55,052 nt of DNA, taken from positions 873-55,924 of the forward strand of contig NZ_BEWG01000033.1 of the NCBI RefSeq assembly GCF_002723835.1. Reading direction: 5' to 3'. This DNA comes from Mycobacterium sp. shizuoka-1. Lineage in GTDB: Bacteria; Actinomycetota; Actinomycetes; Mycobacteriales; Mycobacteriaceae. The position numbers and the translations under genes were made by a program. The notes under the pieces are model-generated. The model worked only from the letters and a program-made list of their open reading frames with translations, was not told where the DNA came from and ran no database searches. Each line of letters begins with the position of its first letter. Position 1 is the first letter of the stretch. Below are positions 38,399-51,409 of the stretch, piece by piece.

Positions 38399-38764
38399 GG
38401 GGCTGAACGGTTTCGACTTCGCGCATCGAATCAAGGGAAGCGTGCCGGTGCAGGCAAGAGACCACCGTAAGCGTCGTTGCAACCAATTAAGCGCCGATTC
38501 CAATCAGCGCGACTACGCTCTCGCTGCCTAAGCGTTAGCTAGTCCGTCAGACCGGGAGAGCCCTCGACCCGGACCCTGGCGTCATCTAGAGGGATCCACC
38601 GTTGAGTCCGGTCGCGGGACCCAACGGGACATCTAACAGCGACTGGGATCGTCATCCCGGCGGGTCTGCGAGACCGGGAGATCCAAGTAGAGACACAGCG
38701 GACTGCGCACGGAGAAGCCTTGAGGGAATGCCGTAGGACCCGGGTTCAATTCCCGGCAGCTCCA
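38399..38764 (+). ncRNA. ssrA: Transfer-messenger RNA (tmRNA)
   Basis: 366 nt. The 5' end GGGGCTGAACGGTTTCGACT is the near-universal tmRNA start; the 3' end has GGGTTCAATTCCCG (T arm) and CAGCTCC, which pairs with GGGGCTG to form the acceptor stem. The reading frame starts at GCC 38493 and codes ADSNQRDYALAA then TAA. tmRNA with SmpB rescues stalled ribosomes and tags the nascent chain. CCA is not encoded after the discriminator A here (ACAA follows). The 3' end is the attachment site of the integrated elements and is rebuilt exactly by the left att copy. Confidence 0.97.
38493..38531 (+). other. tmRNA proteolysis-tag reading frame
   Basis: Twelve sense codons plus TAA (38529-38531) inside ssrA, encoding ADSNQRDYALAA. 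The C-terminal ALAA is the ClpX/ClpA-recognised end. The first codon, GCC, is the resume codon. Confidence 0.92.
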
Positions 38765-38765
38765 C
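38745..38765 (+). repeat. att copy 1 (attL, end of ssrA)
   Basis: A 21-bp sequence ending CCCGGCAGCTCCAC, made of the T-arm and acceptor end of ssrA. An identical 21-mer is at 48831-48851 and a 16-bp part is at 51388-51403. It marks the left junction of element A. Confidence 0.9.
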
Positions 38766-38812
38766 AATTGAATAGCAGGTCAGAGACCTAAATCTGGTCG
38801 AACGAGGGCCAC

Positions 38813-38831
38813 GTCAGCACCTAGTCAGCAC
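38813..38831 (+). repeat. Left arm-type sites GTCAGCAC (two direct copies)
   Basis: GTCAGCAC at 38813-38820 and 38824-38831 with CTA between. The same octamer, including the 12-mer GTCAGCACCTAG, recurs near the right end (48738-48749). Location between attL and the integrase gene fits integrase arm-type binding. Confidence 0.5.
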
Positions 38832-38843
38832 ACTGCGATTAGT

Positions 38844-39974
38844 ATGCCCGGCGTGGCCTTTGTTCGTGAGCGCACCAAGAGGGACGGCGCGACCGTCTAT
38901 GGAGTCACCTATCGCATCGGTGGACGAGCTGGTCGACAATCGTCCGTCACATTCCAAGACAGAAAAGAGGCCGACCGCTTCTGTGCGCTTGTTGACGCGT
39001 TCGGACCGGTAGAGGCATTGGCGAAGGCCGGCATCTCGGACACGCGACCCGCAATGTCGCTGCTCACTGTGACGGAGTTCCTGGGGCAACACATCGACAG
39101 CCTGTCGGGCGTCGAACGTAAGACGCTCACTGAGTATCGGCGCTATGTCCGCAATGACATCGGCCCCGCGTTGGGTGCTTTGCCGTTGAGCAAGTTGACG
39201 CGCGCCGATGTTGCGGGGTGGGTCAATGTCATGCAGGAGGCCGGAGCCAAGACAGGCACCATGCAGAACAAGCACGGGTTTCTGTCCGGCGCATTGAAGC
39301 AGGCAGTCAAGGATGGCCTTCTGGCAGTCAACCCCTGCGACGGGGTCAAGCTACCGAGGACGGAAGAACGCGAAACCGTGTTCCTTACCCGCGACGAGTT
39401 TCAAACCCTCAAGGCATCGTTCACTGAGCACTATCAACCGCTGGTTGAGTTCCTGGTGGCGTCGGGCTGCCGGTTCAATGAGGCCGCAGCACTCAAGCCG
39501 TCCGACGTTAACCGTACTGACAACACGGTGCGGATCGCCCGCGCATGGAAGCAAGACGGCACCCATTACACGATGGGTCCACCGAAGACGCAGAAGTCTA
39601 ATCGGACGATCAACGTGCCGGAGGCCGTGCTTGACCGGCTGGACTACTCACATGAGTGGCTGTTCACCACTACTAGAGGAGAACCGATCCGGCTGTCGTC
39701 TTGGCGCACAAACGTGTGGAACAAGTCACGCGCAAGGGCGCAGGCGGCGGACCCGCAGAGCACGGAGAAGTCCGTGTTGCTCAAGTCTCCAACGCCGCAC
39801 GATCTGCGGCATACGTGTGCCAGCTGGATGATCCAAGCCGGCGTGCCGCTACCCGTCATCCAGGCGCATCTAGGCCACGAATCCATCACGACCACGGTGG
39901 ACAGGTACGGACACCTCGACCGGACCAGTCACGTTGCAGCCGCCGACGCCATCAGCAAGATGCTGCTGGGTTGA
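38844..39974 (+). CDS. Tyrosine integrase of element A
   Basis: 376 residues. An N-terminal arm-binding domain (VTYRIGGRAGRQSSVTFQDRKEADRF), a core-binding SAM-like domain (about 70-170) and the catalytic domain with Arg210 (ASGCRFNEAAAL), Lys248, His319-x2-Arg322 (PHDLRHTCASWM), His345 (HLGHE) and nucleophile Tyr355 (VDRYGH). All catalytic residues are present. It lies 78 bases from attL and reads into the element, the usual arrangement for integration at a tRNA or tmRNA gene. The ATG at 38844 has only a weak ribosome site; GTG 38853 is possible. Confidence 0.95.
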   Translation: MPGVAFVRERTKRDGATVYGVTYRIGGRAGRQSSVTFQDRKEADRFCALVDAFGPVEALAKAGISDTRPAMSLLTVTEFLGQHIDSLSGVERKTLTEYRRYVRNDIGPALGALPLSKLTRADVAGWVNVMQEAGAKTGTMQNKHGFLSGALKQAVKDGLLAVNPCDGVKLPRTEERETVFLTRDEFQTLKASFTEHYQPLVEFLVASGCRFNEAAALKPSDVNRTDNTVRIARAWKQDGTHYTMGPPKTQKSNRTINVPEAVLDRLDYSHEWLFTTTRGEPIRLSSWRTNVWNKSRARAQAADPQSTEKSVLLKSPTPHDLRHTCASWMIQAGVPLPVIQAHLGHESITTTVDRYGHLDRTSHVAAADAISKMLLG

Positions 39975-39976
39975 GG

Positions 39977-40061
39977 TGTCCAGAAAGTTGGACACGCAGC
40001 AGTGCCCGTGAGCTGCGATTTCTCGCCGTTCTCGGTTCGAATTTGTCCGACTTTGTGGACA
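39977..40061. promoter_or_regulatory. Pair of 18-bp TGTCC-N8-GGACA palindromes
   Basis: TGTCCAGAAAGTTGGACA at 39977-39994 and TGTCCGACTTTGTGGACA at 40044-40061, centres 67 bp apart. They fill the gap between the integrase stop and the small HTH gene, and could be operators of the element's switch or Xis sites. The rest of this 211-bp gap holds an AT-rich ATATGTATAGG stretch at about 40093 that may be the promoter. Confidence 0.55.
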
Positions 40062-40185
40062 GATTACGAAAGGGAACGTCCTCGGATGCGACGATATGTA
40101 TAGGTAGGAACGGGACGGAACGACCTGCCTAAAGAATGGGGAGCACAGTGCTCGTCAGTAGCATCCGTCAGTTAGAACCGTACAA

Positions 40186-40446
40186 ATGACAAAATCTCTC
40201 CTCATGGGAATGGATGAGTTCTTTGAGTTGACCGGAGTGCCGGTTAATACTCAGAAAGACTGGCGCGCTAAGGGTGGTCGTAAAGGTCCTCCATCTGCGG
40301 TAATTGCCGGGAAGCTCAAGTATCGCCGTGTCGACGTAATGACATGGATAGACGAGCAATTCGAGCAGCCCGCTAAGCACGCTGCTAACGCGGTGGCCGA
40401 GTTTTCTCCGCTTGGTAAGCGCGCGCTAACGCGTGCTGCGTCTTAA
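40186..40446 (+). CDS. AlpA/excisionase-like HTH protein
   Basis: 86 residues. MDEFFELTGVPVNTQKDWRAKGG followed by PPSAVIAGKLKYRRVDVMTWIDEQF is the winged-helix layout of AlpA/HTH_17 proteins that act as excisionases or regulators of integrases. ATG 40186 is used; ATG 40204 and 40210 are alternatives and none has a strong ribosome site. Lies between the integrase and the DUF3987-like gene, after the TGTCC palindromes it may bind. Confidence 0.75.
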   Translation: MTKSLLMGMDEFFELTGVPVNTQKDWRAKGGRKGPPSAVIAGKLKYRRVDVMTWIDEQFEQPAKHAANAVAEFSPLGKRALTRAAS

Positions 40447-40502
40447 CTCATTAGTCATTGTCATCAGAGACACGAATATCTCCACTTAACAGAGGGAACT
40501 TA

Positions 40503-42038
40503 GTGAACAGGGAAAACGCCTATCTGGCAGAAGACTTCTTCCTTAACTCCGACAGTGAGCAGTTAAGCAGCATCTACGGTTGGGCGCGGACGCGGTACGT
40601 ATCGCCTACTGCGGTGCTCTTCGGGGTATTGCTGCGTGTCGCTGCTTGCGTCCCGCCATACGTGCAGTTGCCGCCTGTAATCGGTGGCCGCGCCAGCCTG
40701 AACCTGCTCTGCGCTTTCGTCGGTAGATCAGGAACCGGTAAGGGTGCTAGCGCAAAGGTCGCAGCTTTGGCGTGGCCAACTGATGTCCTCACATTGCCCA
40801 TCGGTTCAGGCCAGGGGATCGCCGAACAGTTCACTAAGCGGGACGCGGCTGAGGTTAATCCGGTCATCTTCGATATTCCGGAGATAGATACGCTTACGGG
40901 TCTATCAAGTGCCCACGGAAGTATCCTGCTGCCGACGCTAAAGAGTTTGGCAATGGGTGAACAGCTCGGGCAGGCTAACGCTACTAAGGACACCAGCCGT
41001 AATGTCCCTGCCCATTCGTATAGGGCGTGTGTTTCGATTGGTGCACAGCCAGGTCACACAGGCGTCCTTTTCAACGACGTGACCGGCGGTACTCCGCAAC
41101 GGTTTCTATGGGCATCAGTGACCGATCCCAATATCCCCGACGGGTCATTTCCCCAACCTAAACCGTTGTCAACGACAATGCCGATATGGACGCCGCCAGG
41201 CGACGGCAATGCTATCGACATCGTGTATTCAACGCCTGAGATAGAAGAGCTTATTCTAAGCAGCCACATTGCGCGCCAGCGCGGCGACGGAGACCCGCTC
41301 GACGGTCACGCTTTGCTCACGCGCTGCAAGGTGGCAGCGCTGTTGGCCATCATGCACCAGCGCCTTGCGGTTACCAAGCACGATTGGGACCTATCCGGGC
41401 AGATTATGAAGGTTTCCGACCAGACTCGCGCCTTGCTCCGACAGCAGGAAGCCGAGATTCATGCCGCTGTCCTCCGGGAGCGCGGCAAGAATGACGCGTT
41501 GCGCTATGAGGGGCGCGATGACTACCAACTGGAATCGGTTAGGAACAGCGTGGTCGCATTTCTGACGAAGCAGGGCGGCACAGCATCCGCCAGCGACGTG
41601 AAGTCAGCGATGGGGAAGCCGCATCGTCGGAAGCTGCTTCCGCAGGCCGTCGCCGAGTTGGCTGATGACGGTCTAGTGGTGCCCATTTCCGTGGCTGGCG
41701 GCACCCGCTATCAGCTAACAGGGATTGTTCAGGGTGAACAGGGCGTTCAGGGGTTGTCTTCGCAGTTCAGGGAGGATGAACAGTGCGTTCAGGATGAACG
41801 CTCCGCCACCGTCGTAAGTTTGGAATCGCGCAGGCCGCAAAGCTCGGCTACGGAGAAAATCTCATGCCAGAAATGGTTTGACGGGCACCTCGCCGACCTT
41901 CGCGCAAAGGGCCAAGAAACCGTAGAAGGAGCCGCTGTGCGGAAGGCTGGGCAAGCAGCGGGATATTCCAGGGGACAGCTCTACGTTGCCGCGACTACGA
42001 GGCGTCTCAAGGGAACGCATTGGCCTTTGTCGGGCTGA
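40503..42038 (+). CDS. DUF3987-like P-loop (replication/helicase-like) protein
   Basis: 511 residues from GTG 40503, with GAGGG eight bases upstream; a TTG at 40458 is a weaker option. P-loop GRSGTGKGAS near residues 74-83, an acidic FDIPEID segment about 50 residues on (Walker B place), GGTPQRFLW later, then a winged helix (VAFLTKQGGTASASDVKSAMGK...LADDGLVVP). Its C-terminus has a low-complexity segment (VQGEQGVQG, EDEQCVQDE) coded by short palindromes, and a final helix pair. Comparable proteins in actinobacterial elements are thought to act in replication, but no function is proven. Confidence 0.65.
   Translation: MNRENAYLAEDFFLNSDSEQLSSIYGWARTRYVSPTAVLFGVLLRVAACVPPYVQLPPVIGGRASLNLLCAFVGRSGTGKGASAKVAALAWPTDVLTLPIGSGQGIAEQFTKRDAAEVNPVIFDIPEIDTLTGLSSAHGSILLPTLKSLAMGEQLGQANATKDTSRNVPAHSYRACVSIGAQPGHTGVLFNDVTGGTPQRFLWASVTDPNIPDGSFPQPKPLSTTMPIWTPPGDGNAIDIVYSTPEIEELILSSHIARQRGDGDPLDGHALLTRCKVAALLAIMHQRLAVTKHDWDLSGQIMKVSDQTRALLRQQEAEIHAAVLRERGKNDALRYEGRDDYQLESVRNSVVAFLTKQGGTASASDVKSAMGKPHRRKLLPQAVAELADDGLVVPISVAGGTRYQLTGIVQGEQGVQGLSSQFREDEQCVQDERSATVVSLESRRPQSSATEKISCQKWFDGHLADLRAKGQETVEGAAVRKAGQAAGYSRGQLYVAATTRRLKGTHWPLSG
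41727..41799. repeat. Iteron-like GTTCA/TGAAC cluster inside the P-loop gene
   Basis: GTTCAGGGTGAAC (41727-41739), GTTCAGG (41745), GTTCA-N7-TGAAC (41765-41781) and GTTCAGGATGAAC (41787-41799): three inverted repeats and one half site in 73 bp. They encode the Gln/Gly/Glu-rich segment. They may be a replication-initiator binding site or only repetitive coding sequence. Confidence 0.45.
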
Positions 42039-42139
42039 ATACCGCCGGAGAGAGAGGGGTCGCTGGCCGTACGAGGCGGGGTGAGGTGAGTTATGGGGTT
42101 ACCCCCCACCCCCATCGTCTGTGTCAGGTTCCCTTTCGC

Positions 42140-42778
42140 TCAGTCTTCGACGAGTTCACCGGCCCAGGCTTCTCGGCCTTCGTGGATGGCGAAGGCCGCG
42201 ATGACGAACCCAGCCACGGGGTCGAGCCATGCGGCTCCGGTCAGTTGGAATAGACCGACTCCGAGCAGGGTGGAGGCGCTGAGCAGCACGCAGATTTTAG
42301 TTTGGGCGGCGTCGGCCAGGATGAGGTTGTCGTGCAGGGCTATGCCGATGCGCTTTTTCGCCGCTGCTAGGACGGGCATCACGATCAGCGACGCCGCGAG
42401 CAGTATGAGTGCGGCTGGGGAGCTGTGTGGTGTCTCGCCGCTCGTGATGTTGCGGATGCCTTCGACGGTGACGTAGGCGGCGAGGATGAAGAACGAGATG
42501 GCGACGAATCGCAGGGTTTGTCGTTCTTTGCCCTCGTCGGCGACGCCGTGGCGCAGGCGGGCCGACAGGCGCAGGGCGACCAGGATTGCGGTGAGGGATT
42601 CGATGGCCGAGTCGAATCCGAATCCGATGACTGATATGAGTCCAGCAAGGAGTCCGGCTGTTACCGCGATGGCACCTTCGGCGATGTTGTAGGCGATGGT
42701 GAATTGCGCCAGGTGCAGGGCCTTGCGGGTCAGCCGGGTGAGTTCAGCGTTGCTGGGTTCGCTGCCGGTATTGGTCAT
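42140..42778 (-). CDS. CDF-family cation efflux transporter (short form)
   Basis: 212 residues from ATG 42778, overlapping the arsR stop (ATGA). Six membrane segments, including TIAYNIAEGAIAVTAGLLAG and SVIGFGFDSAIESLTAILVALRL, where FDSAIES provides the acidic metal site, and HDNLILADAAQTK the second. The C-terminal cytoplasmic domain of typical CDF proteins is missing, as in the short actinobacterial form. Exports a divalent metal (Zn, Co, Cd) in exchange for protons. Control by the co-transcribed ArsR-type sensor is expected. Confidence 0.85.
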   Translation of the reverse strand: MTNTGSEPSNAELTRLTRKALHLAQFTIAYNIAEGAIAVTAGLLAGLISVIGFGFDSAIESLTAILVALRLSARLRHGVADEGKERQTLRFVAISFFILAAYVTVEGIRNITSGETPHSSPAALILLAASLIVMPVLAAAKKRIGIALHDNLILADAAQTKICVLLSASTLLGVGLFQLTGAAWLDPVAGFVIAAFAIHEGREAWAGELVED

Positions 42779-43146
42779 GGCGTTTCGTCGGTGCAGCCGT
42801 CCATGCCGTAGGTCGGGCAGACGGCCACAGCTTCACCGGTAGCTTCCAGGACGATCTGGGCCGACGAAAGTAGGTCAATCAGTGCGGGCTGGGTGAGGCG
42901 AAACAACGAGGCCCGTCCGACCGGCTCGGAGGCGACCAGACCGCACTCCCGCAGGCAGGCCAGGTGTTTGGAGACGGTGGACTGAGCCAATCCCACGGCC
43001 TGCACCAGCTCCACAACGCGCGCCGGGCCGGCGGCCAGTCTGCGCACAATGGCCAGGCGGGTGGGGTCCCCGAGGGAACGGAATAGTGCCGCCGCCGGGG
43101 CCAGCTCGACCCGCTGTAACTCCGCCGGTACGGCCATCATCTCCAT
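42775..43146 (-). CDS. ArsR/SmtB-family metal sensor (CmtR-like)
   Basis: 123 residues. Winged-helix core LFRSLGDPTRLAIVRRLAAGPARVVELVQAVGLAQSTVSKHLACLRECGLVASEPVGR. The recognition-helix CLREC gives a Cys-x3-Cys pair like CmtR, and the C-terminal CPTYGMDGC offers more thiols, so a soft metal (Cd, Pb, Zn) is the likely signal. First gene of the minus pair with the CDF transporter. TATAG-CAGT-CTATA just upstream is the candidate operator, placed to regulate the divergent copper-type genes also. Confidence 0.87.
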   Translation of the reverse strand: MEMMAVPAELQRVELAPAAALFRSLGDPTRLAIVRRLAAGPARVVELVQAVGLAQSTVSKHLACLRECGLVASEPVGRASLFRLTQPALIDLLSSAQIVLEATGEAVAVCPTYGMDGCTDETP

Positions 43147-43156
43147 TCGGCGATGT

Positions 43157-43170
43157 TATAGCAGTCTATA
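43157..43170. promoter_or_regulatory. Putative ArsR/CmtR operator
   Basis: TATAG-CAGT-CTATA, perfect arms, 11 bases upstream of the arsR ATG. A second small palindrome, CTACTGCGTAG, is at 43190-43200. Both lie in the 122-bp gap between the divergent metal genes. Confidence 0.55.
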
Positions 43171-43268
43171 GATAAGGGGACTATCGGCCCTACTGCGTAG
43201 TGGAGCGACCCGCGCATGCTGACCTCATCAAACAGGAGGACGGGCTTAGCTCTTCTTAGGAGGCGGCG

Positions 43269-43544
43269 ATGTGCGGATACGGGTGGGGCAACGGCTGGCA
43301 CAGCGGTTGGGGCTGGGGCGGTGTGACCATGAGCGTGCTGATGGTGCTGTTGGTTGTCGCTGTAGTGGTGGCGATCATTTTCGCTGTCCGTTATCTCTCG
43401 GGCAGCGCGAGCCTCCATCACCGGGGCGGTGCAGCACCGGACGGGGTGCGTGCCGAAGACCGACTGGCCGACCGGTTCGCGCGGGGAGAGATCGACGGGG
43501 ATGAGTTCCGTCAGCGCATGGCGCTGTTGCGCGAACACCGCTGA
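43269..43544 (+). CDS. SHOCT-domain membrane protein
   Basis: 91 residues; AGGAGG lies five bases before ATG 43269. The N-terminus is rich in Gly and Trp (MCGYGWGNGWHSGWGWGG), then a membrane helix (SVLMVLLVVAVVVAIIFAVRYL), then a C-terminal SHOCT motif (DRLADRFARGEIDGDEFRQRMALL). SHOCT domains are short oligomerisation modules common in metal-resistance islands of actinobacteria. The Cys and His near the N-terminus could bind metal. First of three plus-strand genes; the cupredoxin gene follows after five bases. Confidence 0.82.
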   Translation: MCGYGWGNGWHSGWGWGGVTMSVLMVLLVVAVVVAIIFAVRYLSGSASLHHRGGAAPDGVRAEDRLADRFARGEIDGDEFRQRMALLREHR

Positions 43545-43549
43545 CCGCC

Positions 43550-44308
43550 ATGAAGACTCCTCGCAGAACGCGTGACTTGGTCATTGCCGTGGCAGCCTTA
43601 ATTGTCGCTATCGGCTGTGCGGTCGCACTGAGTATCGGAACAGCCATGCGGCACAACCAGATAGCCGCGAGTCTGCCGTACCCGCCTGGCTTCGGGATGA
43701 TGGGAACCGGGCAGCCGGGGGCCGGGATGATGATGGGTCCCGGCATGATGGGGCCGGGGCGGTCCCCCGCGATCCCGTCATGTTCCGCACCGGCGTTGCC
43801 GGGCACCGTTGTCGACGTGACCCTTACCGATATGCACGGGATGATGGGACCCGGCGGCATGATGGGGCCAGGGATGATGGGTCCCGGCGGCGGGATGGGG
43901 CCAGGTCAAGGCGGCAATCAAGGCGCGCCGATGGGGATGATGGCGATGATGCGCATTGTCCTCAATCCGGCCACGGTCCCGCCTGGGCAAGTGTCCTTTC
44001 GAGTTACCAATGCCGGTGCCCTGAACCACGAATTGGTGATCCTGCCTCTCGGGAAGGGCCAGTATCCCGGCCAGCGTCCCAGCGGTCCGGACGGCAAGGT
44101 CGATGAGGCAGGCAGCGTGGGTGAAGCCTCACGCTCCTGCGGTGCAGACAAGGGTGACGAGAACGCCGCTAACAGCGGCATCGCGCCAGGGGCCAGTGGA
44201 TGGACCTCTGTGAACCTCACGCCTGGACGCTACGAGTTGATCTGCAACCTAAGCGGTCACTACTGGACCGGCATGTACGCCGAATTAGATGTCAGCCCAA
44301 GCAAGTAA
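43550..44308 (+). CDS. Secreted Met-rich cupredoxin (blue copper protein)
   Basis: 252 residues. A signal-anchor (LVIAVAALIVAIGCAVALSIG) leads to two Met-rich stretches of GPGMMGPG type (residues 49-70 and 96-125) and a C-terminal cupredoxin domain: a His in NHELVILPLGKG and Cys, His and Met in CNLSGHYWTGMYAELDV, the His-Cys-His-Met set of a type 1 copper site. Met repeats bind Cu(I), the cupredoxin can hold or pass copper outside the membrane. Expected role is copper tolerance or delivery. It is followed by another Met-rich secreted protein. Confidence 0.85.
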   Translation: MKTPRRTRDLVIAVAALIVAIGCAVALSIGTAMRHNQIAASLPYPPGFGMMGTGQPGAGMMMGPGMMGPGRSPAIPSCSAPALPGTVVDVTLTDMHGMMGPGGMMGPGMMGPGGGMGPGQGGNQGAPMGMMAMMRIVLNPATVPPGQVSFRVTNAGALNHELVILPLGKGQYPGQRPSGPDGKVDEAGSVGEASRSCGADKGDENAANSGIAPGASGWTSVNLTPGRYELICNLSGHYWTGMYAELDVSPSK

Positions 44309-44351
44309 CTCATCGCGACACCCTCAGACGGAACGAGAAGGGGTGAAGATC

Positions 44352-44723
44352 ATGGCCACCGTCACGACGTGGACGATCACCAGTGCCGTAGTCGTCGCGC
44401 TCACCGGGTCGGTGATGTGTGCCGCACCAAGCAGCGGCACCACCGGAAATGACAAGTCGGCAGCTGTGCCGGCCCCCGTCTCTAGAAGCCCCTACGCGGC
44501 CCAAGGTCCCAACCCGCTAGACCCGCCGGGATGTTGGGACGCCGACGGCATCTGGCATCCCGACTGCTGGGGTCCCGGACAGTGGGCACCTGGGCAATCC
44601 GTTCCCGGACAGTGGGGACCTGGCATGGGGCCGGGAATGATGGGACCGGGACCGTGGGGGCCGGGAATGATGGGTCCCGGCCAGTGGGGACCCGCGATGG
44701 GACCTGGGCCTTGGGATTACTAG
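44352..44723 (+). CDS. Secreted Trp/Gly/Pro/Met-rich repeat protein
   Basis: 123 residues from ATG 44352, with AAGGGG eight bases upstream; GTG 44343 is possible. A signal peptide (TWTITSAVVVALTGSVMCAAPSS, perhaps a lipoprotein Cys) is followed by CWDADGIWHPDCWGPG and a tail of GPGQW, GPGMM and GPGPW units ending in GPWDY. The GPGMM unit also occurs in the neighbouring cupredoxin, so both probably bind Cu(I) in the periplasm or wall. No family is recognised. Confidence 0.72.
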   Translation: MATVTTWTITSAVVVALTGSVMCAAPSSGTTGNDKSAAVPAPVSRSPYAAQGPNPLDPPGCWDADGIWHPDCWGPGQWAPGQSVPGQWGPGMGPGMMGPGPWGPGMMGPGQWGPAMGPGPWDY

Positions 44724-44787
44724 CCAACGACACAGCGCGACAACGCATTCTGCGATCCATGACCGAGACGAGTCCCGGCATACAAGC

Positions 44788-45396
44788 TCAGTCGCGCTCT
44801 TGAGCGGCCTCGGCAAGCACGCGGTAGACCGTCGCCCGGCTCACGCCCAAAGTGGCGGCAATGGTGCTCGCCGACTCCCCGCTCGCATGCATCCGCTGAG
44901 CCAGCGCCGCCTTCGACCTGTCGAGTGCCTTTGGGCGACCAATGTGTTGCCCACGCGCACGCCGCGCCTCACGCGCGGAAGCGCGGCGTTCGCGACCAAG
45001 CTCAAGTTCTAGCTCAGCCAGGCTCGCCAGGACACCGGCCACCATGCGACCCGTAGCGTTCGAGGTGTCGATGCCTTCCCGCAGCGACCGCAGCACAATG
45101 TTGCGTTCACCAAGTTCGCGAATCGTCGTCATGACCTCGGCTGCGTTGCGGCCCAGGCGGTCGATGCCCACCACCACAATGGCGTCACCCTCGCGCGCGT
45201 AGTCCAAGAGGGCCGCCAGACCGGGACGCTGCTCGCGTGTCGAGGTGCCGGACAGCTTGTCGCTGTAGATGCGCGCGGTGTCCACCCCCGCTGCGGCGAG
45301 CGCATCGACCTGCTGGTCGAGTGACTGATGGCCGGTCGAAACGCGGGCGTAGCCGAGTTGGGTTCCGGTCGCGGCGGATGCGGTGCTGACTGCCAT
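44788..45396 (-). CDS. Serine recombinase (Tn3-type resolvase)
   Basis: 202 residues. Catalytic domain GYARVSTGHQSLDQQVDAL with the nucleophile Ser, then YSDKLSGTSTREQRPGLAALLDYAREGD, VVGIDRLGRNAAEV (Arg pair) and a C-terminal HTH (SASTIAATLGVSRATVYRVLAEA). It resolves cointegrates or inverts DNA at res sites. No transposase is nearby, so it may be a solitary remnant of the transposon that brought the metal genes, or a stability function. The gap upstream has repeated TGAGACA/GTCTC motifs. Confidence 0.92.
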   Translation of the reverse strand: MAVSTASAATGTQLGYARVSTGHQSLDQQVDALAAAGVDTARIYSDKLSGTSTREQRPGLAALLDYAREGDAIVVVGIDRLGRNAAEVMTTIRELGERNIVLRSLREGIDTSNATGRMVAGVLASLAELELELGRERRASAREARRARGQHIGRPKALDRSKAALAQRMHASGESASTIAATLGVSRATVYRVLAEAAQERD

Positions 45397-45405
45397 GCCA
45401 CTAGT

Positions 45406-45534
45406 GTCGCAAAAGTCGCAGAACGTGTCAATTGAGACAGGCGTTTTGATTCATGTTCTGAGACACACCGTCCTGGGAGTTTCTGCTCTCTAACGAGTCC
45501 CGCCACCAACGTCTCAGTTCTTTAGTTTCGAGAC
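45406..45534. other. Candidate res region upstream of the resolvase
   Basis: In the 243-bp gap between the resolvase and the Mrr-STAND gene: GTCGCA twice (45406, 45415), TGTCAATTGAGACA (45426-45439), TGAGACA (45459-45465), GTCTCA (45511-45516) and GAGAC (45530-45534). Repeated inverted TGTCTCA-like boxes next to a resolvase resemble res subsites, but the spacing has not been matched to a known res. Confidence 0.35.
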
Positions 45535-45639
45535 CTCGAAATACGGATGACTGCTGCATCCTCCCCCCGCCGGAGCGCTTGGCGACACCCGAGGCTTTCA
45601 GCCCGCAATGCCGCTTGGCGCAGGCCTCCTGTAGCGACA

Positions 45640-48378
45640 ATGTCAGGCATGACAGACGGTGCGGTGCCTCCGCAGAGTGTTCAACCGCTCAGAGTGGTAG
45701 ATCCACATGTGTTGATACTCGCGAGCGACGAATCCGACGCCGCGTCGAGCAACAAGCGTGGAGCGTTGTTCGAGAGCTTCGTGGCCTCTCTCCTAAACAC
45801 GTACGGCTACAACGAGCCAACTCGCGAGAGCCTGAACACCACCGCGAACGGCATCGAACTGGACGTGTCGGCAGTACATGGACTCACAAATCATCGTGCT
45901 ATCGCGGAATGCAAGGCATACAGCAGTCCGGTGCCCGCCCACATGCTGGGCACCTTCCACAGCAAGCTTGTCACGGGGCGGTACGTCGACGCTGATCTCC
46001 AAGGCTTCTTTGTTGCCATTCCGCGTCTGACCGGGCAGGGTCAGGAACAGGCGAAGCTGATCGAAGCTAATGATCCACGCTTTCGATGTCTCACAGGGAA
46101 GAACATCTACGAGTCCTTGTTGGAACGTCGTTCGTTAGTTCCGTGCCCGGTAGACCTAAATCTCAAGAGTGACGACGCCGTCGTCATTTCAGAGGACGGC
46201 ATCTACGCCGCATGCATAGAGCTGGACCCTGGCACTCGGACACCAGCACAGGTGTACGTCTGGGGCTCAACAGGGAATGTTCCAGAACGCACGAAAGAGC
46301 TACTCCAAGCGGAGGATTACTGCAAAAGCGCGCCAGTTCAAGACGCCCGCCAACCTTGGGCAGCAACGCCAACTTCCCCGAGCGAGGCAGCTCCGCTCAT
46401 CGTTCAAGTAGCAGGTAGCGAGTCTGATTTCGAATACCAGCTACCTACGTCGCCGAAGTTCTTCGTTGGACGGAAGAACGTCGTGCAAGCGATGGAGAAG
46501 GCGGTTGGAGAGCACGCTGGCGTACTTGTACTCAATGCGCAATCCGGATGGGGGAAGAGTTCGGCTGCGCTTCGCCTGAAAGCCTTGGCTGCCGATCAAG
46601 CTGGCTTTGCGCTGGTGGTGGACTCTAGAACGGCCAGCTCTCGGCGTTTTGTGACGGAGGCTTTAAGCAAGGCCGCGCAGGAGGCGGCCCTGGTGGGGGT
46701 TCTCGACCTACCGGCGAACGCGAGCTGGGCAAGTCTGCCTAGCTCGTTGCGGACCCTTTCGGAGGCAGAATGGAAAGCGGGACCGCTCATTGTGTTCTTC
46801 GACCAGTTCGAGAACGTGTTCCGCGATGAAGCCCTGACCCGAGAGTTTCGAGATCTCGCTCTGAGTACGAGGGAGACTGCGGGCAACCTGATGGTGGGGT
46901 TTGCATGGAAAACTGATCTGGTCGGCTGGACGGAGGGCCACCCGTACCAGTTGAGAGATGAAATCCGTTCAAGCGCTACCGTTCTGGCATTGGGGCCTTT
47001 TGGGGCTTCGGAAGTCGAGACGTTGCTCCGACGCTTAGAGCGTGAGCTTGGGCAGACGCTCGCACGCGACTTGCGAACGCGTCTACGCGAATACAGCCAA
47101 GGTCTGCCCTGGCTCTTCAAGAAACTTGCGGGTCATCTGATCCGTGAGGTCGAAGCTGGTGCGACGCAAGAAAAGCTGGCAAGTGAGGCGCTAAACGTGC
47201 AGGGATTGTTTGACGCCGATCTAGCGGAGTTGAACATGCAAGAGCAAGAAGCTGTGCGCTTCATCGCTCGGCACGCACCTATCGCGATCAGCGAAGTGAT
47301 CGAACGAGTGACGCCGCCAGTCGTCGAATCCCTTGTGAATCGTCGCTTGATCGTGCAGGTGGGCGAGCGACTGGATACATACTGGGATATCTTCCGCGAC
47401 TATCTGAACACGAATCGTGTTCCAGTCGAAGACTCGTACATTCTGCGGCAGAGCCCGAACTCTGTGGCTAGGTTGCTCAGGGAAGTTGAGATAGACAACG
47501 GCGACGCAACTGTGCATGATCTCGCCGAGCGCCTTTCTACCAGCGAGAACGCCGTGTTCAACCTCAGTCGCGAACTCCGTTTGCTTGGCGCGACATCGTA
47601 CGAGCCCAATCGGGTGCGTCTCTTGCCGGAGGTCTGGGAGGCCGACGACCGCGAGGAAGCGATCCGGAAGCGTGTTGCTCAGTCCATCAAGCGGCACAGG
47701 GCTTTTAGCGCGTTTCTGGGTATTGAAGAACGTGTCGGCAGCGTGACGGTCAGCGCGTTCGCCTCCGAGTTACCTTCGGCATTCCCCGCGATCGAAGTCA
47801 CGACGAATACATGGAACACCTACGGGCGTGTCTTCCTGAGGTGGTTCGAGTATGCCGGTCTAGCGACGATGAAGTCTCAAACGCTCTGGGTCTCCGCTGC
47901 GGAAGGCGCACACGGAGTCGGCAAGCTACTTGGTGCGCCGCTTAGGCGCAGAACGGTCGGCGGCTTCCCTCACGCCGCCCCCGGCCCGAGCATCGCCTTA
48001 TTGAGGGAACTTGCTTCGAATACGGCTGTGGACGTGCCTCGGAGACGAAGCGCCCTGCGACCGTTGCTCGACATCGACGCCGTTCGTGAGGAGGACGGTG
48101 GCCGCATTGTTGTTCAACATCAGCTCGTCCAACATGGGGAACTGAGCGCACCCGTACTTCGAGATCTGCTATCGCGAGTGCCCGGAGTTTCCCCAGGCTT
48201 GTCGTTACTAGAGCAGAAGCCCGACGCCTCACCGATGGAGGTCGGAACCACGGTGGCGGAGGCGCTCTCCGCAGACTGGGCACCGGGGACCGTGCACTCG
48301 CTTGGGAAGTATCTGCGCGCCTGGGCGCGCTTCGCTGGCGTAGCTATCGCGAGACCGTCACGCGCACCTGCGCATTGA
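45640..48378 (+). CDS. Mrr-like nuclease fused to STAND NTPase (putative anti-phage protein)
   Basis: 912 residues from ATG 45640; ATG 45547 and 45649 are alternatives. The N-terminal domain has a PD-(D/E)xK core: Glu45 in GALFESF, Asp75 in NGIELDVS and Glu90-Cys-Lys92 in AIAECKAY, as in Mrr-type nucleases. From about residue 274 (FFVGRKNVVQAM) comes a P-loop NTPase with Walker A SGWGKSS (Lys306), Walker B LIVFFDQFENVF (Asp388) and a GLPWLFKKLAG motif, the GxP region of STAND proteins. The rest, about 400 residues, has winged-helix-like segments and no TPR pattern. Avs-type STAND nucleases detect phage proteins and cut DNA; a similar role is inferred. It is alone, with 243 bp of upstream non-coding DNA. 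Confidence 0.8.
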   Translation: MSGMTDGAVPPQSVQPLRVVDPHVLILASDESDAASSNKRGALFESFVASLLNTYGYNEPTRESLNTTANGIELDVSAVHGLTNHRAIAECKAYSSPVPAHMLGTFHSKLVTGRYVDADLQGFFVAIPRLTGQGQEQAKLIEANDPRFRCLTGKNIYESLLERRSLVPCPVDLNLKSDDAVVISEDGIYAACIELDPGTRTPAQVYVWGSTGNVPERTKELLQAEDYCKSAPVQDARQPWAATPTSPSEAAPLIVQVAGSESDFEYQLPTSPKFFVGRKNVVQAMEKAVGEHAGVLVLNAQSGWGKSSAALRLKALAADQAGFALVVDSRTASSRRFVTEALSKAAQEAALVGVLDLPANASWASLPSSLRTLSEAEWKAGPLIVFFDQFENVFRDEALTREFRDLALSTRETAGNLMVGFAWKTDLVGWTEGHPYQLRDEIRSSATVLALGPFGASEVETLLRRLERELGQTLARDLRTRLREYSQGLPWLFKKLAGHLIREVEAGATQEKLASEALNVQGLFDADLAELNMQEQEAVRFIARHAPIAISEVIERVTPPVVESLVNRRLIVQVGERLDTYWDIFRDYLNTNRVPVEDSYILRQSPNSVARLLREVEIDNGDATVHDLAERLSTSENAVFNLSRELRLLGATSYEPNRVRLLPEVWEADDREEAIRKRVAQSIKRHRAFSAFLGIEERVGSVTVSAFASELPSAFPAIEVTTNTWNTYGRVFLRWFEYAGLATMKSQTLWVSAAEGAHGVGKLLGAPLRRRTVGGFPHAAPGPSIALLRELASNTAVDVPRRRSALRPLLDIDAVREEDGGRIVVQHQLVQHGELSAPVLRDLLSRVPGVSPGLSLLEQKPDASPMEVGTTVAEALSADWAPGTVHSLGKYLRAWARFAGVAIARPSRAPAH

Positions 48379-48394
48379 GCGCATCACGCTACGC

Positions 48395-48643
48395 TCATCG
48401 GTCGAGATCCACTTCCCACGGAAGCAGGTCGACAAATCGTTCAAGTTCGGTGACCGGGAAGAGTACCTTCTTCCCGTGGCGCTTGGCATGCAAACGCCCA
48501 GCGCGGCGCAGGTTGTCAATTTCAGATTCGGAGAGCGACAGGATGCGAGCGGCCTCGGGCCTGGTTACCAACAGTGGCAACGGGCGGAAGTCGTCCTCTC
48601 TCAAGCTCTCTGAGCTGAGGCGCTGTCCGGGCGTATGCGTCAT
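48395..48643 (-). CDS. Small HTH_17-type protein near attR
   Basis: 82 residues from ATG 48643 (the frame is open to 48745). PLLVTRPEAARILSLSESEIDNLRRAGRLHAKRHGKKVLFPVTELERFVDLLPWE is the MerR-like HTH_17 fold of excisionases. It lies about 190 bases from the right att copy with GTCAGCAC arm sites in between, so it could be the recombination directionality factor of element A, or belong to an older insertion. No strong ribosome site is seen. Confidence 0.7.
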   Translation of the reverse strand: MTHTPGQRLSSESLREDDFRPLPLLVTRPEAARILSLSESEIDNLRRAGRLHAKRHGKKVLFPVTELERFVDLLPWEVDLDR

Positions 48644-48725
48644 AGGGGCCGAAGCTATCCCAAGTCGGCAGACCCCGCGAGTACGAGCGGCGTACCCCAC
48701 TCTGTCAGCGAGTAAGAGTGGCAGC

Positions 48726-48790
48726 GTGCTGACGGTGGTCAGCACCTAGCCCATGTCGGCTCATGTTTTCCCATGTCGGCCCGTGCTGAC
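48726..48790. repeat. Right arm-type sites GTCAGCAC
   Basis: GTGCTGAC (48726-48733), GTCAGCAC (48738-48745, extended by CTAG as on the left) and GTGCTGAC (48783-48790). The first two form an inverted pair. CCATGTCGGC occurs twice between them. Placement just inside the right att copy mirrors the left end of element A. Confidence 0.5.
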
Positions 48791-48830
48791 GCGTTTCGCG
48801 TATTCGCAGCTCAACGGCATTATATGCGGC

Positions 48831-48851
48831 TTCAATTCCCGGCAGCTCCAC
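48831..48851 (+). repeat. att copy 2 (junction A/B)
   Basis: Identical over 21 bp to 38745-38765. The bases before it (TATATGCGGC) are not those of ssrA, so it belongs to the element side; what follows is a terminator-like hairpin resembling the native one at 51410. Confidence 0.9.
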
Positions 48852-48859
48852 GAGTTAAT

Positions 48860-48887
48860 GCAGGTCAGGTCGAAAGGCCTGGCCTGC
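48860..48887 (+). terminator. Hairpin with GAAA loop after att copy 2
   Basis: GCAGGTCAGGTC (48860-48871), GAAA, GGCCTGGCCTGC (48876-48887): a 12-bp stem with two G-T wobbles, then ATCTTTGTT. It imitates the stem of the native ssrA terminator at 51410-51435, so it probably served as ssrA terminator before element A was inserted. Confidence 0.7.
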
Positions 48888-49041
48888 ATCTTTGTTGCGT
48901 ACGGAAGCGAAAAACAAGTTTGGCCGGCTGAGGACTCTCCTCGCTGACCTCCGAACTCTCCGACATTTGAACGGGCGATTCGCTTATCGGGGCGGCTTAG
49001 GTCCGCCGCTAGCGAAAGAGCTTTCGTCACATACCGTCAGA

Positions 49042-50733
49042 TCAAGTCTTGGTGTTTGGAAGTAACTTGTGAGGACCGAAGAAGCCAACATGCGTTCGGC
49101 AGTGCCCGTCATCGAAGTGGAAGTAAATGCGGGGTGCGAGGTTTCCACCGCCCGTCGCGATCTTCAGGTGCGCCTGCATAAAAATCTTGCCTGTTGGTTG
49201 GACGTCAACTGACACCGGGAACTCCCTTGTGCGCCTCAGCTTCGGCGAGTTGTTGACACTCTCGGATTCCACCATCGCAAGCTTCTTGTCAGTTGCCCTC
49301 CACGCGCGCAGATTACCTGAGTGCTTGCACCACTCCCAGAATCCGCCTCCATCCCATCCGGCTGCGCGATCGGACGCGTATGCATGCAGGGCGAGGAATC
49401 CTTCCCAGGAGGTTTGGCCCCACGCTGCTGATGTCGGGGCTGCGTCAAGTTGATCAAGGTCGTGTAGGGCGGCGGGGGGGATTACAAGCCGGTCGGAGAG
49501 GTATTCCCGTGCCAGTTCGGCAGCGTGTGACAAACTTGCAGCGGTTGCGGGTGGTTGCTGATCCCTCTCGAGCGCATAGAACTCGTCGGGAGCCTTCAGT
49601 TGCCCCTGTAGCGACTGCACGTGACGCTCGAGTTCCTCAATCTGCCGTAAAGCGTAAGCGCGTTCTTCGGCAGCCACGCCGAGGTCGAGTGCGAGACCTT
49701 CAATGGACTCATCGCGATCGCGGATCTGCTCACGCAGTTCCGCAATAGCGCTGTCTGCTTCGCGCAATTGTGTGTCTGCAAGTTCGAGCAGCAATTCGTG
49801 GTCACCAGAAGTTCCGACTTGCTCGAGCAGACGCTTCGCAGCGGGGTAACTCTGGGGCGGCCTCCGCACGGCAGATACCGGTCCGAGCAGTCGCCCAACG
49901 GCCTGCCGTGCGGTGGTCTTGGAGCCGGCATAACGGTTGGCGGTGAAATACCTATGGCGCCAAGCGTTGCCGGAAGCCGCCGGATCCACATCTGTGAGGT
50001 AGACCCTCATCGCGCCGTCCCACACCCCGTGTGAGCGGCCGAGTGCGTCGATTACTCCGTCCGCAGCTTCATTGTCGATCGTATAGACCACTGCTATGCC
50101 GGCTGTGGCGCGGCGTACGGCCTCGACTACGTCCGGGAGATACAGGTCGTGGTCAGCCGCCTTGCATCTAGACTGCACGTCATCGTTGACGACGATAACT
50201 GGGAGTGTCCGGTCGGGCCGGGAGATTGTCTCTGCTAGTTGCTCGCCTGCGGCAAATCCGGTGATCTCTGCATTGAGTGGTTTCAATAAGTCGCCATCCA
50301 CGGTTGGCGACCCACCCCTGCCGAGTAGGTCGTTGACGAGTCTTGGTGCGGCACTGGCGAGTCGCGCGATGTCGACGTCCCCTACAACCTCAACGTCAAC
50401 CCAGATCCACCGCTCTAATGCATCTTTGTCCGGTTCACTGGCCTCCCAACTGCGCAGCGTGGTGTGCCATCGTGAATTGCCGCTGCGCGTCTCAATGAGG
50501 TCAGCACGGTATATGCACGATATGCCCGTGTCGGGATCGCTGGCTCCGCTTGTGCGGACCTCAAGCTCAACCTGCTCAGCGCCCTGCTTGTCGACTCCGT
50601 AAGCAACTCCGTTTTCGGGCACCACTATTGAGCGCCACTTTGAAGTTACCCATCGGCTGAAGGTCTCAGCAGCTAGGTCGCACACATCGCTAAGGTCCTG
50701 ATCCTGCCAAATGGCCCGATAGATCAACGACAT
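49042..50733 (-). CDS. Unrecognised 563-aa protein of element B
   Basis: 563 residues, no signal peptide or membrane helix. Three parts: residues 1-300, an alpha/beta region with WRSIVVPENGVAYGVDKQG, WIWVDVEVVGDVDIARLASAAPRLVNDLL and LPVIVVNDDVQ; 315-395, a Gln/Glu/Leu-rich coiled coil (LADTQLREADSAIAELREQI to ELERHVQSLQGQL); 400-563, a C-terminal domain with SWEGFLALHAYASDRA, REFPVSVDVQPTGKIFMQAHLKIATG and a final VGFFGPHKLLPNTKT. I do not recognise the family. AAGG lies eight bases before ATG 50733. As the only gene of an ssrA-borne element it may be a defence or toxin gene, which is inference from location only. Confidence 0.8.
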   Translation of the reverse strand: MSLIYRAIWQDQDLSDVCDLAAETFSRWVTSKWRSIVVPENGVAYGVDKQGAEQVELEVRTSGASDPDTGISCIYRADLIETRSGNSRWHTTLRSWEASEPDKDALERWIWVDVEVVGDVDIARLASAAPRLVNDLLGRGGSPTVDGDLLKPLNAEITGFAAGEQLAETISRPDRTLPVIVVNDDVQSRCKAADHDLYLPDVVEAVRRATAGIAVVYTIDNEAADGVIDALGRSHGVWDGAMRVYLTDVDPAASGNAWRHRYFTANRYAGSKTTARQAVGRLLGPVSAVRRPPQSYPAAKRLLEQVGTSGDHELLLELADTQLREADSAIAELREQIRDRDESIEGLALDLGVAAEERAYALRQIEELERHVQSLQGQLKAPDEFYALERDQQPPATAASLSHAAELAREYLSDRLVIPPAALHDLDQLDAAPTSAAWGQTSWEGFLALHAYASDRAAGWDGGGFWEWCKHSGNLRAWRATDKKLAMVESESVNNSPKLRRTREFPVSVDVQPTGKIFMQAHLKIATGGGNLAPRIYFHFDDGHCRTHVGFFGPHKLLPNTKT

Positions 50734-51387
50734 GGAAGAGCCTTAAGTTTGTAAAGGACCGGTGCCGGCGATACACGCTTAGCATCGTCATGGTTTCTGC
50801 GGAGACGAAACTGTGTTAACAGGCCCGCGTGCCAGGATGGCATCGGCAGGACGGCGGCCAAGAAGTGCTGGCGGCGTGGATTTGGTAGATGCATGTCGAC
50901 AATTAAAGGACATTAGTGAACGAAAGTGCATCAGAGACTACTATCTCGGTCCATTTTCCGTCGATTGAAAGAACTTAGCCTGTTCACGAAGCGCGCCGTT
51001 CTCACTCTTGAGACTTGAGGAAGGAGGGTATGCAGGCGCCAATGACCACGATGCGCGCCGTAGAAGACTACCGTGTCTTAGGGCTCGTTAGCCGATGCAG
51101 TTAGTTGTTCTCGCCACTTCTATTTGCGGTTCTGTGATCCTCAAGGTCAGCGGATGGAATGGGGCCATAGAATGCCCAGTTAGAACGGATTCCTGCGATA
51201 TCCCGACGGTGGCACAACCCCAGGTTGAGTTCACAGCATCTCGCTGATCATGGGGAACTGGCGTCCGAGTCTATTGACCTTCTAGGAGGCGTTGATGCTT
51301 GTACACGGCCATGCTTACGCGTGAGGAGTCAAGTTCGCAAGGTAGTCCGTTTACGTAGTCCATGTTGAGAGCAACATGGGCCAGATC
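50734..51387. other. 640-bp stretch without a convincing gene
   Basis: Mixed GC, several stops in all frames; the long minus frame over its right part is a shadow of the YhgE gene. It holds one 24-codon frame (51030-51104) and the inverted repeat TCCATGTTGAGAGCAACATGG at about 51358 (CCATGTTG/CAACATGG arms). It may be decayed element sequence. Confidence 0.6.
51030..51104 (+). CDS. Possible 24-aa ORF in element B
   Basis: MQAPMTTMRAVEDYRVLGLV... to TAG. Upstream sequence TGAGGAAGGAGGGT is Shine-Dalgarno-rich, but the closest GGAGG is only a few bases from the ATG; the earlier GAGGA is nine bases away. No similarity recognised. It may be a short leader or remnant. Confidence 0.25.
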   Translation: MQAPMTTMRAVEDYRVLGLVSRCS

Positions 51388-51403
51388 TTCCCGGCAGCTC
51401 CAC
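51388..51403 (+). repeat. att copy 3 (right chromosomal junction)
   Basis: TTCCCGGCAGCTCCAC, 16 bp shared with copies 1 and 2; the five bases before it differ (GATC-C). It is followed directly by the hairpin that looks like the native ssrA terminator, so this is the original attB right half. Confidence 0.82.
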
Positions 51404-51409
51404 CGAGAA

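Follow-up and report, generated by a model that had tools for sequence, protein, structure and literature searches.

What is the role of a protein that joins a restriction-type nuclease to a STAND (signal transduction ATPase with numerous domains) NTPase and is encoded by a single gene in an integrative element? The question is raised by an open reading frame (ORF) at 45640..48378 (+) of the window, that is, the whole stretch of DNA analyzed, 55,052 nucleotides of Mycobacterium sp. shizuoka-1 (contig NZ_BEWG01000033.1, positions 873 to 55,924), in which the element occupies the tmRNA gene ssrA. The stop-free reading frame encodes 912 amino acids (aa); an in-frame upstream ATG at 45547 would give a product of 943 aa, and an identical database record of 909 aa suggests a start at 45649, leaving 45547, 45640, and 45649 as candidate starts. 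A first-pass annotation of the letters had described one 912-residue nuclease-STAND fusion and quoted its motifs, all of which are present in the translation, and Pfam matches it with Mrr_cat and nSTAND1. The nuclease-STAND fusion is real, and the single protein combines a predicted DNA-cutting domain, a STAND-type ATP switch, and a tail predicted to read DNA. The answer favored here, with confidence about evenly balanced, is that it is a self-contained anti-invader nuclease, restriction-like and gated by nucleoside triphosphate (NTP), that senses DNA and not a phage protein.

The N-terminal region is assigned as an Mrr-type PD-(D/E)xK nuclease domain (residues 20-165, 45697..46134, on the (+) strand as are all parts of the gene). 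The Pfam match of Mrr_cat to residues 42-139 lies barely above the cut-off (1.6e-4, 22.2 bits versus 21), with E45, D75, and E90-C91-K92 as the motif residues. Residue conservation was counted in 49 related genes, 47 of which reach the nuclease region (all but L004 and L035). E45 is kept in all 47 and D75 in 46, with one glutamate; residue 90 is glutamate in 41 and aspartate in six, and residue 92 is lysine in 45 and arginine in two. Mrr_cat also exceeds its cut-off in all nine further family members scanned, one of them as an N-terminal piece, down to ∼23% identity, with margins that vary (50.5 bits in a Burkholderia plasmid copy, 21.8 bits in L053). The PD-(D/E)xK core of the first-pass annotation is thus upheld by a profile match over the cut-off and by catalytic residues that undergo conservative changes only, and on the same grounds the domain is likely an active nuclease. 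Elsewhere in the genome, contigs C77 and C32 hold two stronger Mrr_cat matches, in open frames of 319 and 232 aa.

An acidic, beta-rich linker (residues 166-255, 46135..46404) follows, modeled as strands by AlphaFold2 and carrying a positive net charge in none of 61 sequences. The nSTAND1 NTPase (residues 256-530, 46405..47229) is matched well over the cut-off at residues 272-482 (2.2e-9, 37.8 bits versus 27.1) and contains the motifs S302-GWGKSS, FFDQFENVF, and G488-LPW. These supply the STAND hallmarks, namely the Walker A lysine K306, the Walker B aspartate D388, and the GxP motif at G488-P490, after which comes a winged helix (residues 531-600, 47230..47439) of the kind that follows STAND NTPases, as judged from fold matches to the STAND protein 6mfv and to NLRP; the NTPase had accordingly been classed correctly at the outset. 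K306, G488, and P490 are kept in all 49 related genes, whereas the conservation of FDQFEN, including D388, is given by construction because FDQFEN served as the search pattern for genome contigs.

The tail of about 380 residues is the part from which the favored answer draws its sensor. The AlphaFold2 model of the 912-aa protein was built with a 61-sequence alignment (mean predicted local distance difference test score, pLDDT, 86.5; predicted template modeling score 0.72). AlphaFold2 predicts the tail as winged helices (mean pLDDT 90) and not tetratricopeptide repeat (TPR) helices, in agreement with the non-TPR, winged-helix-like C-terminus noticed earlier. Its parts are a winged helix (residues 601-675, 47440..47664), matched by MarR_2 in 17 of 42 C-termini at E ≤ 0.1; repeat module 1 (residues 676-755, 47665..47904, TW..Y.R....WFEYAGL); a connecting part (residues 756-837, 47905..48150, from the model); and repeat module 2 (residues 838-904, 48151..48351, W..T....GK.LR.WA..AGV). 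Module alignment indicates that the two modules are homologous (E 8e-6), and the winged helix at 531-600 gave no match when compared with the other tail parts. The C-terminal alignment A2 comprises 42 of 48 C-termini, and alignments A5 and A6 comprise 21 of 44 sequences each. The best multi-domain fold match of the tail is the nickase Nt.BspD6I, at its DNA-recognition head, and a sequence match to FokI falls below threshold; together these point to a resemblance to the DNA-recognition heads of type IIS enzymes. The tail is the sole part of the protein with a positive mean charge across the family, and it is basic in most relatives. No Avs (antiviral STAND) chain is among the C-terminal fold matches listed, which does not show absence. 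A viral fold search gave one unnamed match at E ≤ 0.001 plus weak helix-turn-helix (HTH) types.

By sequence, the same build extends over about ten bacterial phyla and is carried by plasmids and integrative elements, so that the "mycobacterial subtype" of the first-pass annotation was wrong in scope. A search of 5.8 billion proteins, with 7,994 candidates scored at 0.55-1.75 times the query length, gave 546 homologs at E ≤ 1e-3, and most of the 120 listed are full-length. Genome contigs yielded 50 loci, some cut by contig ends, whose record titles name Actinomycetota, Pseudomonadota, Desulfobacterota, Polyangia, Aminicenantes, Celaenobacter, Fusobacteriaceae, Paenibacillus, Clostridia, Bacteroidales, and Lentisphaerae; one locus is a metagenome-assembled Thermoplasmata archaeon with the gene in a split frame. 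Plasmid records (n=11) add Cyanobacteria; four are Acinetobacter records of 0.66-3.97 Mb, sizes that make a chromosomal origin likely for at least some of them. In another plasmid copy (L090, Allocoleopsis), a relative is apparently broken by an insertion sequence, the Mrr and ATPase parts being annotated separately with a transposase between them. Close to home, the gene is rare: it is full-length in two of 148 related genomes (own included), with weak partial matches in three more, and in two of 396 genomes of the phylum (own included), where eight weak partial matches and one C-terminal fragment come in addition. Such scattered occurrence is consistent with horizontal transfer.

Domain profiles detect the Mrr nuclease in 145 of 162 proteins (own included); the other 17 are 517-796 aa long and start within the linker or NTPase or no more than about 50 residues ahead of them. 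Effector swapping was seen neither among the 120 listed of 122 matches to residues 600-912 nor among the 162 profiled proteins. In alignment A1, consisting of the 912-aa protein and 60 of the 120 listed homologs, mean identity to the 912-aa protein (59-60 homologs) is 0.65 in the NTPase, 0.67 in the winged helix, 0.49 in the nuclease, 0.38 in the linker, 0.55 in residues 601-757, and 0.39 in residues 758-905. Compared with Mycolicibacter heraklionensis (752 codons), dN/dS (nonsynonymous over synonymous substitution rates) is 0.022 over residues 161-600 and 0.105 over residues 601-912, ratios that are rough because dS is saturated. By these sequence measures the protein is maintained, with a fast-changing tail end and linker.

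How might such a protein work? In the DNA-sensing reading, the C-terminal winged helices would bind incoming DNA, with some foreign feature of it as the trigger. A modified base is the most likely candidate, because no methyltransferase partner turned up that could protect the host; tolerance of the cell's own DNA would be explained most simply by a head that reads a modified or otherwise foreign feature, as type IV enzymes do. By exchanging or consuming NTP, the STAND NTPase would pass into an assembled on-state; this assembly may bring Mrr nuclease domains together in pairs that cut DNA, either that of the invader or, as a last resort, the cell's own. The protein would then resemble a type IV Mrr enzyme in its action, gated by a switch of the NLR (nucleotide-binding, leucine-rich-repeat receptor) type, and an anti-phage role is a likely prediction. 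A bolder formulation is put forward tentatively, as possible and somewhat doubtful: the family would amount to an NLR of bacteria and archaea that senses DNA and needs one gene only. A duplicated head of the FokI type, in place of a phage-protein sensor or a translocating motor, would set off the STAND switch and with it the assembly of Mrr nucleases, and the family would form an unnamed, widespread restriction class of its own. The triggers known for bacterial STAND receptors are, as described so far, phage proteins, and the literature on Avs5 agrees. If the family senses DNA via a restriction-type head, restriction enzymes and NLR-type immunity would be linked in one polypeptide, and a compact NTP-gated nuclease encoded by one gene would be open to testing. 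With the architecture common to many phyla, a single biochemical result would apply widely.

Several observations weigh against sensing of DNA by the tail and against a role in defense. The Z score of Nt.BspD6I is only slightly over the level usual for unrelated models, FokI is not found when module 2 is searched alone, and the FokI stretch matched (218-262) lies largely in D3, a domain without DNA contact. The tail of the 912-aa protein itself is only weakly basic (+2), and within it residues 601-757 carry a slight negative charge (-2). Searches for copies in phages or viral contigs found none, and the neighbor families listed are mostly ordinary. The chief rival of the DNA-sensing reading is an Avs-type sensor, whose tail would recognize a conserved phage protein and so trigger assembly of the STAND domain, after which Mrr would cleave DNA unspecifically, with abortive infection as the outcome; it is considered unlikely, though to be taken seriously. 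The layout is shared with Avs, chiefly Avs4, in the N-terminal nuclease, central STAND NTPase, C-terminal sensor, and single gene, and the Avs4 effector is Mrr-type. Proteins of the present family differ in being about 900 aa long, in having predicted winged helices and a duplicated module instead of TPR, and in an effector that was not seen to vary, being the same in all 145 of 162 proteins that reach the nuclease. The best multi-domain fold match of the tail is a DNA-recognition head. A search of defense-system models, proposed with the first-pass annotation, brought no PADLOC match for the 912-aa protein at E ≤ 1, and seven relatives matched no Avs-named model at E ≤ 0.01, in a collection that includes Avs models; nor was any Avs chain matched in sequence searches of the PDB. 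The earlier comparison with Avs therefore stands as an analogy of nuclease-STAND layout and fails at the level of sequence or model match, TPR tail, and variable effector.

A constitutive enzyme of type II or III character, sequence-specific or plasmid-restricting, would instead cut unmodified foreign DNA, the host being spared by absent sites or a distant methyltransferase. The FokI/Nt.BspD6I-like head speaks for this improbable alternative, as do the Aminicenantes copy (L033), which directly follows a type IIG-like enzyme gene with an overlap of a few bases between mechanically called ORFs, and genome G166, where an N6_Mtase match lies 14 kb from the family gene. The genomes of 26 of the 50 loci were surveyed for N6_Mtase, the sole methyltransferase family sought, with contig ends ignored; two, those of L033 and G166, have a match within 20 kb against 0.76 expected (P 0.17), which shows no enrichment yet leaves two possible partners that count against a sensor of modified DNA. 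In the other 24 there is no match within 20 kb, and neither a methyltransferase nor a partner gene for the nuclease is among the ten element ORFs scanned (ORF 44289-44723 was outside the scan); recognition of unmodified DNA would thus harm the host. A function in element maintenance, such as replication, partition, or exclusion of competing ssrA elements in place of phage defense, appears very improbable. The NTPase fold also resembles Orc/Cdc6 and RuvB, and the distribution is patchy with several copies on mobile elements, as this function would have it; set against it are the conserved nuclease residues and the unrelated carriers (integrative elements, plasmids, and chromosomes of many phyla), among which no partner is widely shared.

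The proposed DNA-sensing, NTP-gated nuclease is best placed by comparison with described systems. FokI and Nt.BspD6I may be alike in a tandem winged-helix recognition head, as judged from the fold match and a weak sequence match; they have no STAND domain, their nuclease is of another family, and the position of the head differs from that in the 912-aa protein. The PADLOC candidate PDC-S02 weakly matches the nuclease part alone in three distant relatives (best 8.2e-5), in contrast with the 912-aa protein, which is unmatched. Mrr_cat-STAND proteins occur in P4-satellite hotspots and are described with C-terminal repeats (PMC9122126); Mrr_cat and STAND are common to both, and the predicted winged helices here may set the present family apart. 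Type IV wH-Mrr-NTPase fusions (wH, winged helix) are named, not characterized, and proposed as DNA-modification sensors in PMC11037411. They likewise unite a winged helix, an Mrr catalytic domain, and an NTPase in one protein, in the order wH-Mrr-NTPase with PD-QxK as opposed to Mrr-STAND-wH with D-ExK here, and related PD-(D/E)XK-wH-NTPase cases carry a McrB-like NTPase (PMC11037411). The BrxC/DUF499/PglW proteins of BREX (bacteriophage exclusion) have STAND/ORC-type ATPase domains and winged-helix modules proposed to bind DNA, in multi-gene systems, in contrast to a single gene here (PMC12839542). Mrr-like effectors in conflict systems (PMC7159879), a plain Mrr enzyme (PMC11279042), and three further sources (PMC8195603, PMC10907252, PMC12931631) complete the nearest literature. 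The Mrr-nSTAND1-winged-helix architecture was not found described in the literature searched, which covers subscription journals thinly and is not proof of novelty. Mrr-STAND fusions are already known; no name for the winged-helix tail was found in PADLOC or that literature, and the protein seems to be unnamed.

The neighbors of relatives are suggestive only of an association with defense genes. The tally covers 122 of 245 ORFs of at least 200 aa within 6.5 kb, mostly the nearest, with near-duplicates L013, L023, L030, and L046 dropped; it is a description only because it has no control set. ORFs were called mechanically, some being spurious, and the matches listed are 25 of 76 and 25 of 105 PADLOC families and 25 of 57 and 25 of 87 Pfam families. 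Among these, PADLOC matches at E ≤ 1e-8 include Cas1, reverse transcriptase (RT), RecD-like, IIG, PDC, and others, with one or two genes each; Pfam matches include three integrases, two TrwC relaxases, two Cas1, two Fic, TIR, RT, TOTE, KAP, HipA, and many household genes. Another mycobacterial copy (L009), beside tRNA-Ala, has a TrwC relaxase on one side and on the other an integrase that shares 50% identity with that of the ssrA element. Six plasmid loci were viewed: recombinase genes lie close by in two, one of which has a SIR2-family gene as well, and another locus is on a conjugative plasmid. A search for neighbor clusters common to at least three loci found one partner-like case, a gene of 134-144 aa that immediately follows the nuclease gene in eight loci of Desulfobacterota type (L036-L042, L053). 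Actinobacteria otherwise showed no partner; three Streptomyces loci share one ORF, and the near-identical L021, L023, and L030 share all.

The integrative element proposed at ssrA is confirmed by the tmRNA gene, 21-bp repeats, an integrase, and an empty site in two genomes. The insertion target ssrA (38399..38765, +) ends in att copy 1 (38745..38765, +), a 21-bp repeat that recurs as att copy 2 where unit 1 ends and unit 2 begins (48831..48851, +); att copy 3 (51388..51403, +) holds the last 16 bases of ssrA and is followed by a terminator-like sequence, in our reading that of the native ssrA. In two genomes of the same genus (L070 and L074), ssrA directly abuts the flank found at 51404 onward in the window. 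Given the ssrA-end repeats and this empty site, 38766-51403 was inserted as two units (12.6 kb).

Unit 1 begins with a tyrosine integrase (38844..39974, +; Phage_integrase 9.8e-24), an excisionase-like HTH protein (40186..40446, +; HTH_17 2e-3, below cut-off), and a DUF3987-like protein, probably of primase/helicase type (40458..42038, +; DUF3987 0.0079, below cut-off). A metal-resistance-like cargo (42140..44308) comprises cation efflux (-), an ArsR-type regulator (-), a small protein (+), and a sulfocyanin-like protein (+); the stretch 42150-44710 is 86% identical to one of a Mycolicibacterium crocinum plasmid. The nuclease-STAND gene is flanked by a serine resolvase (44788..45396, -; Resolvase 3.1e-36) and an HTH_17 excisionase-like protein (48395..48745, -; 5.1e-10). 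It had been described as alone in a mobile element, which holds in that the gene stands by itself and not in that the adjoining att-flanked unit carries a second candidate defense gene. This unit 2 (48852-51387) resembles a cis-mobilizable element, with no integrase seen and a single gene (49042..50733, -) for a HEC-07-like candidate defense protein of 563 aa (PADLOC HEC-07 7.9e-25). The protein has 49 homologs (own included), the named ones all actinobacterial, and among 98 genomes of the genus only its own carries the gene. In another genome of the genus (L073), about 1.3 kb with an att-like copy of its own separates ssrA from the flank, and ssrA looks like a repeated insertion site.
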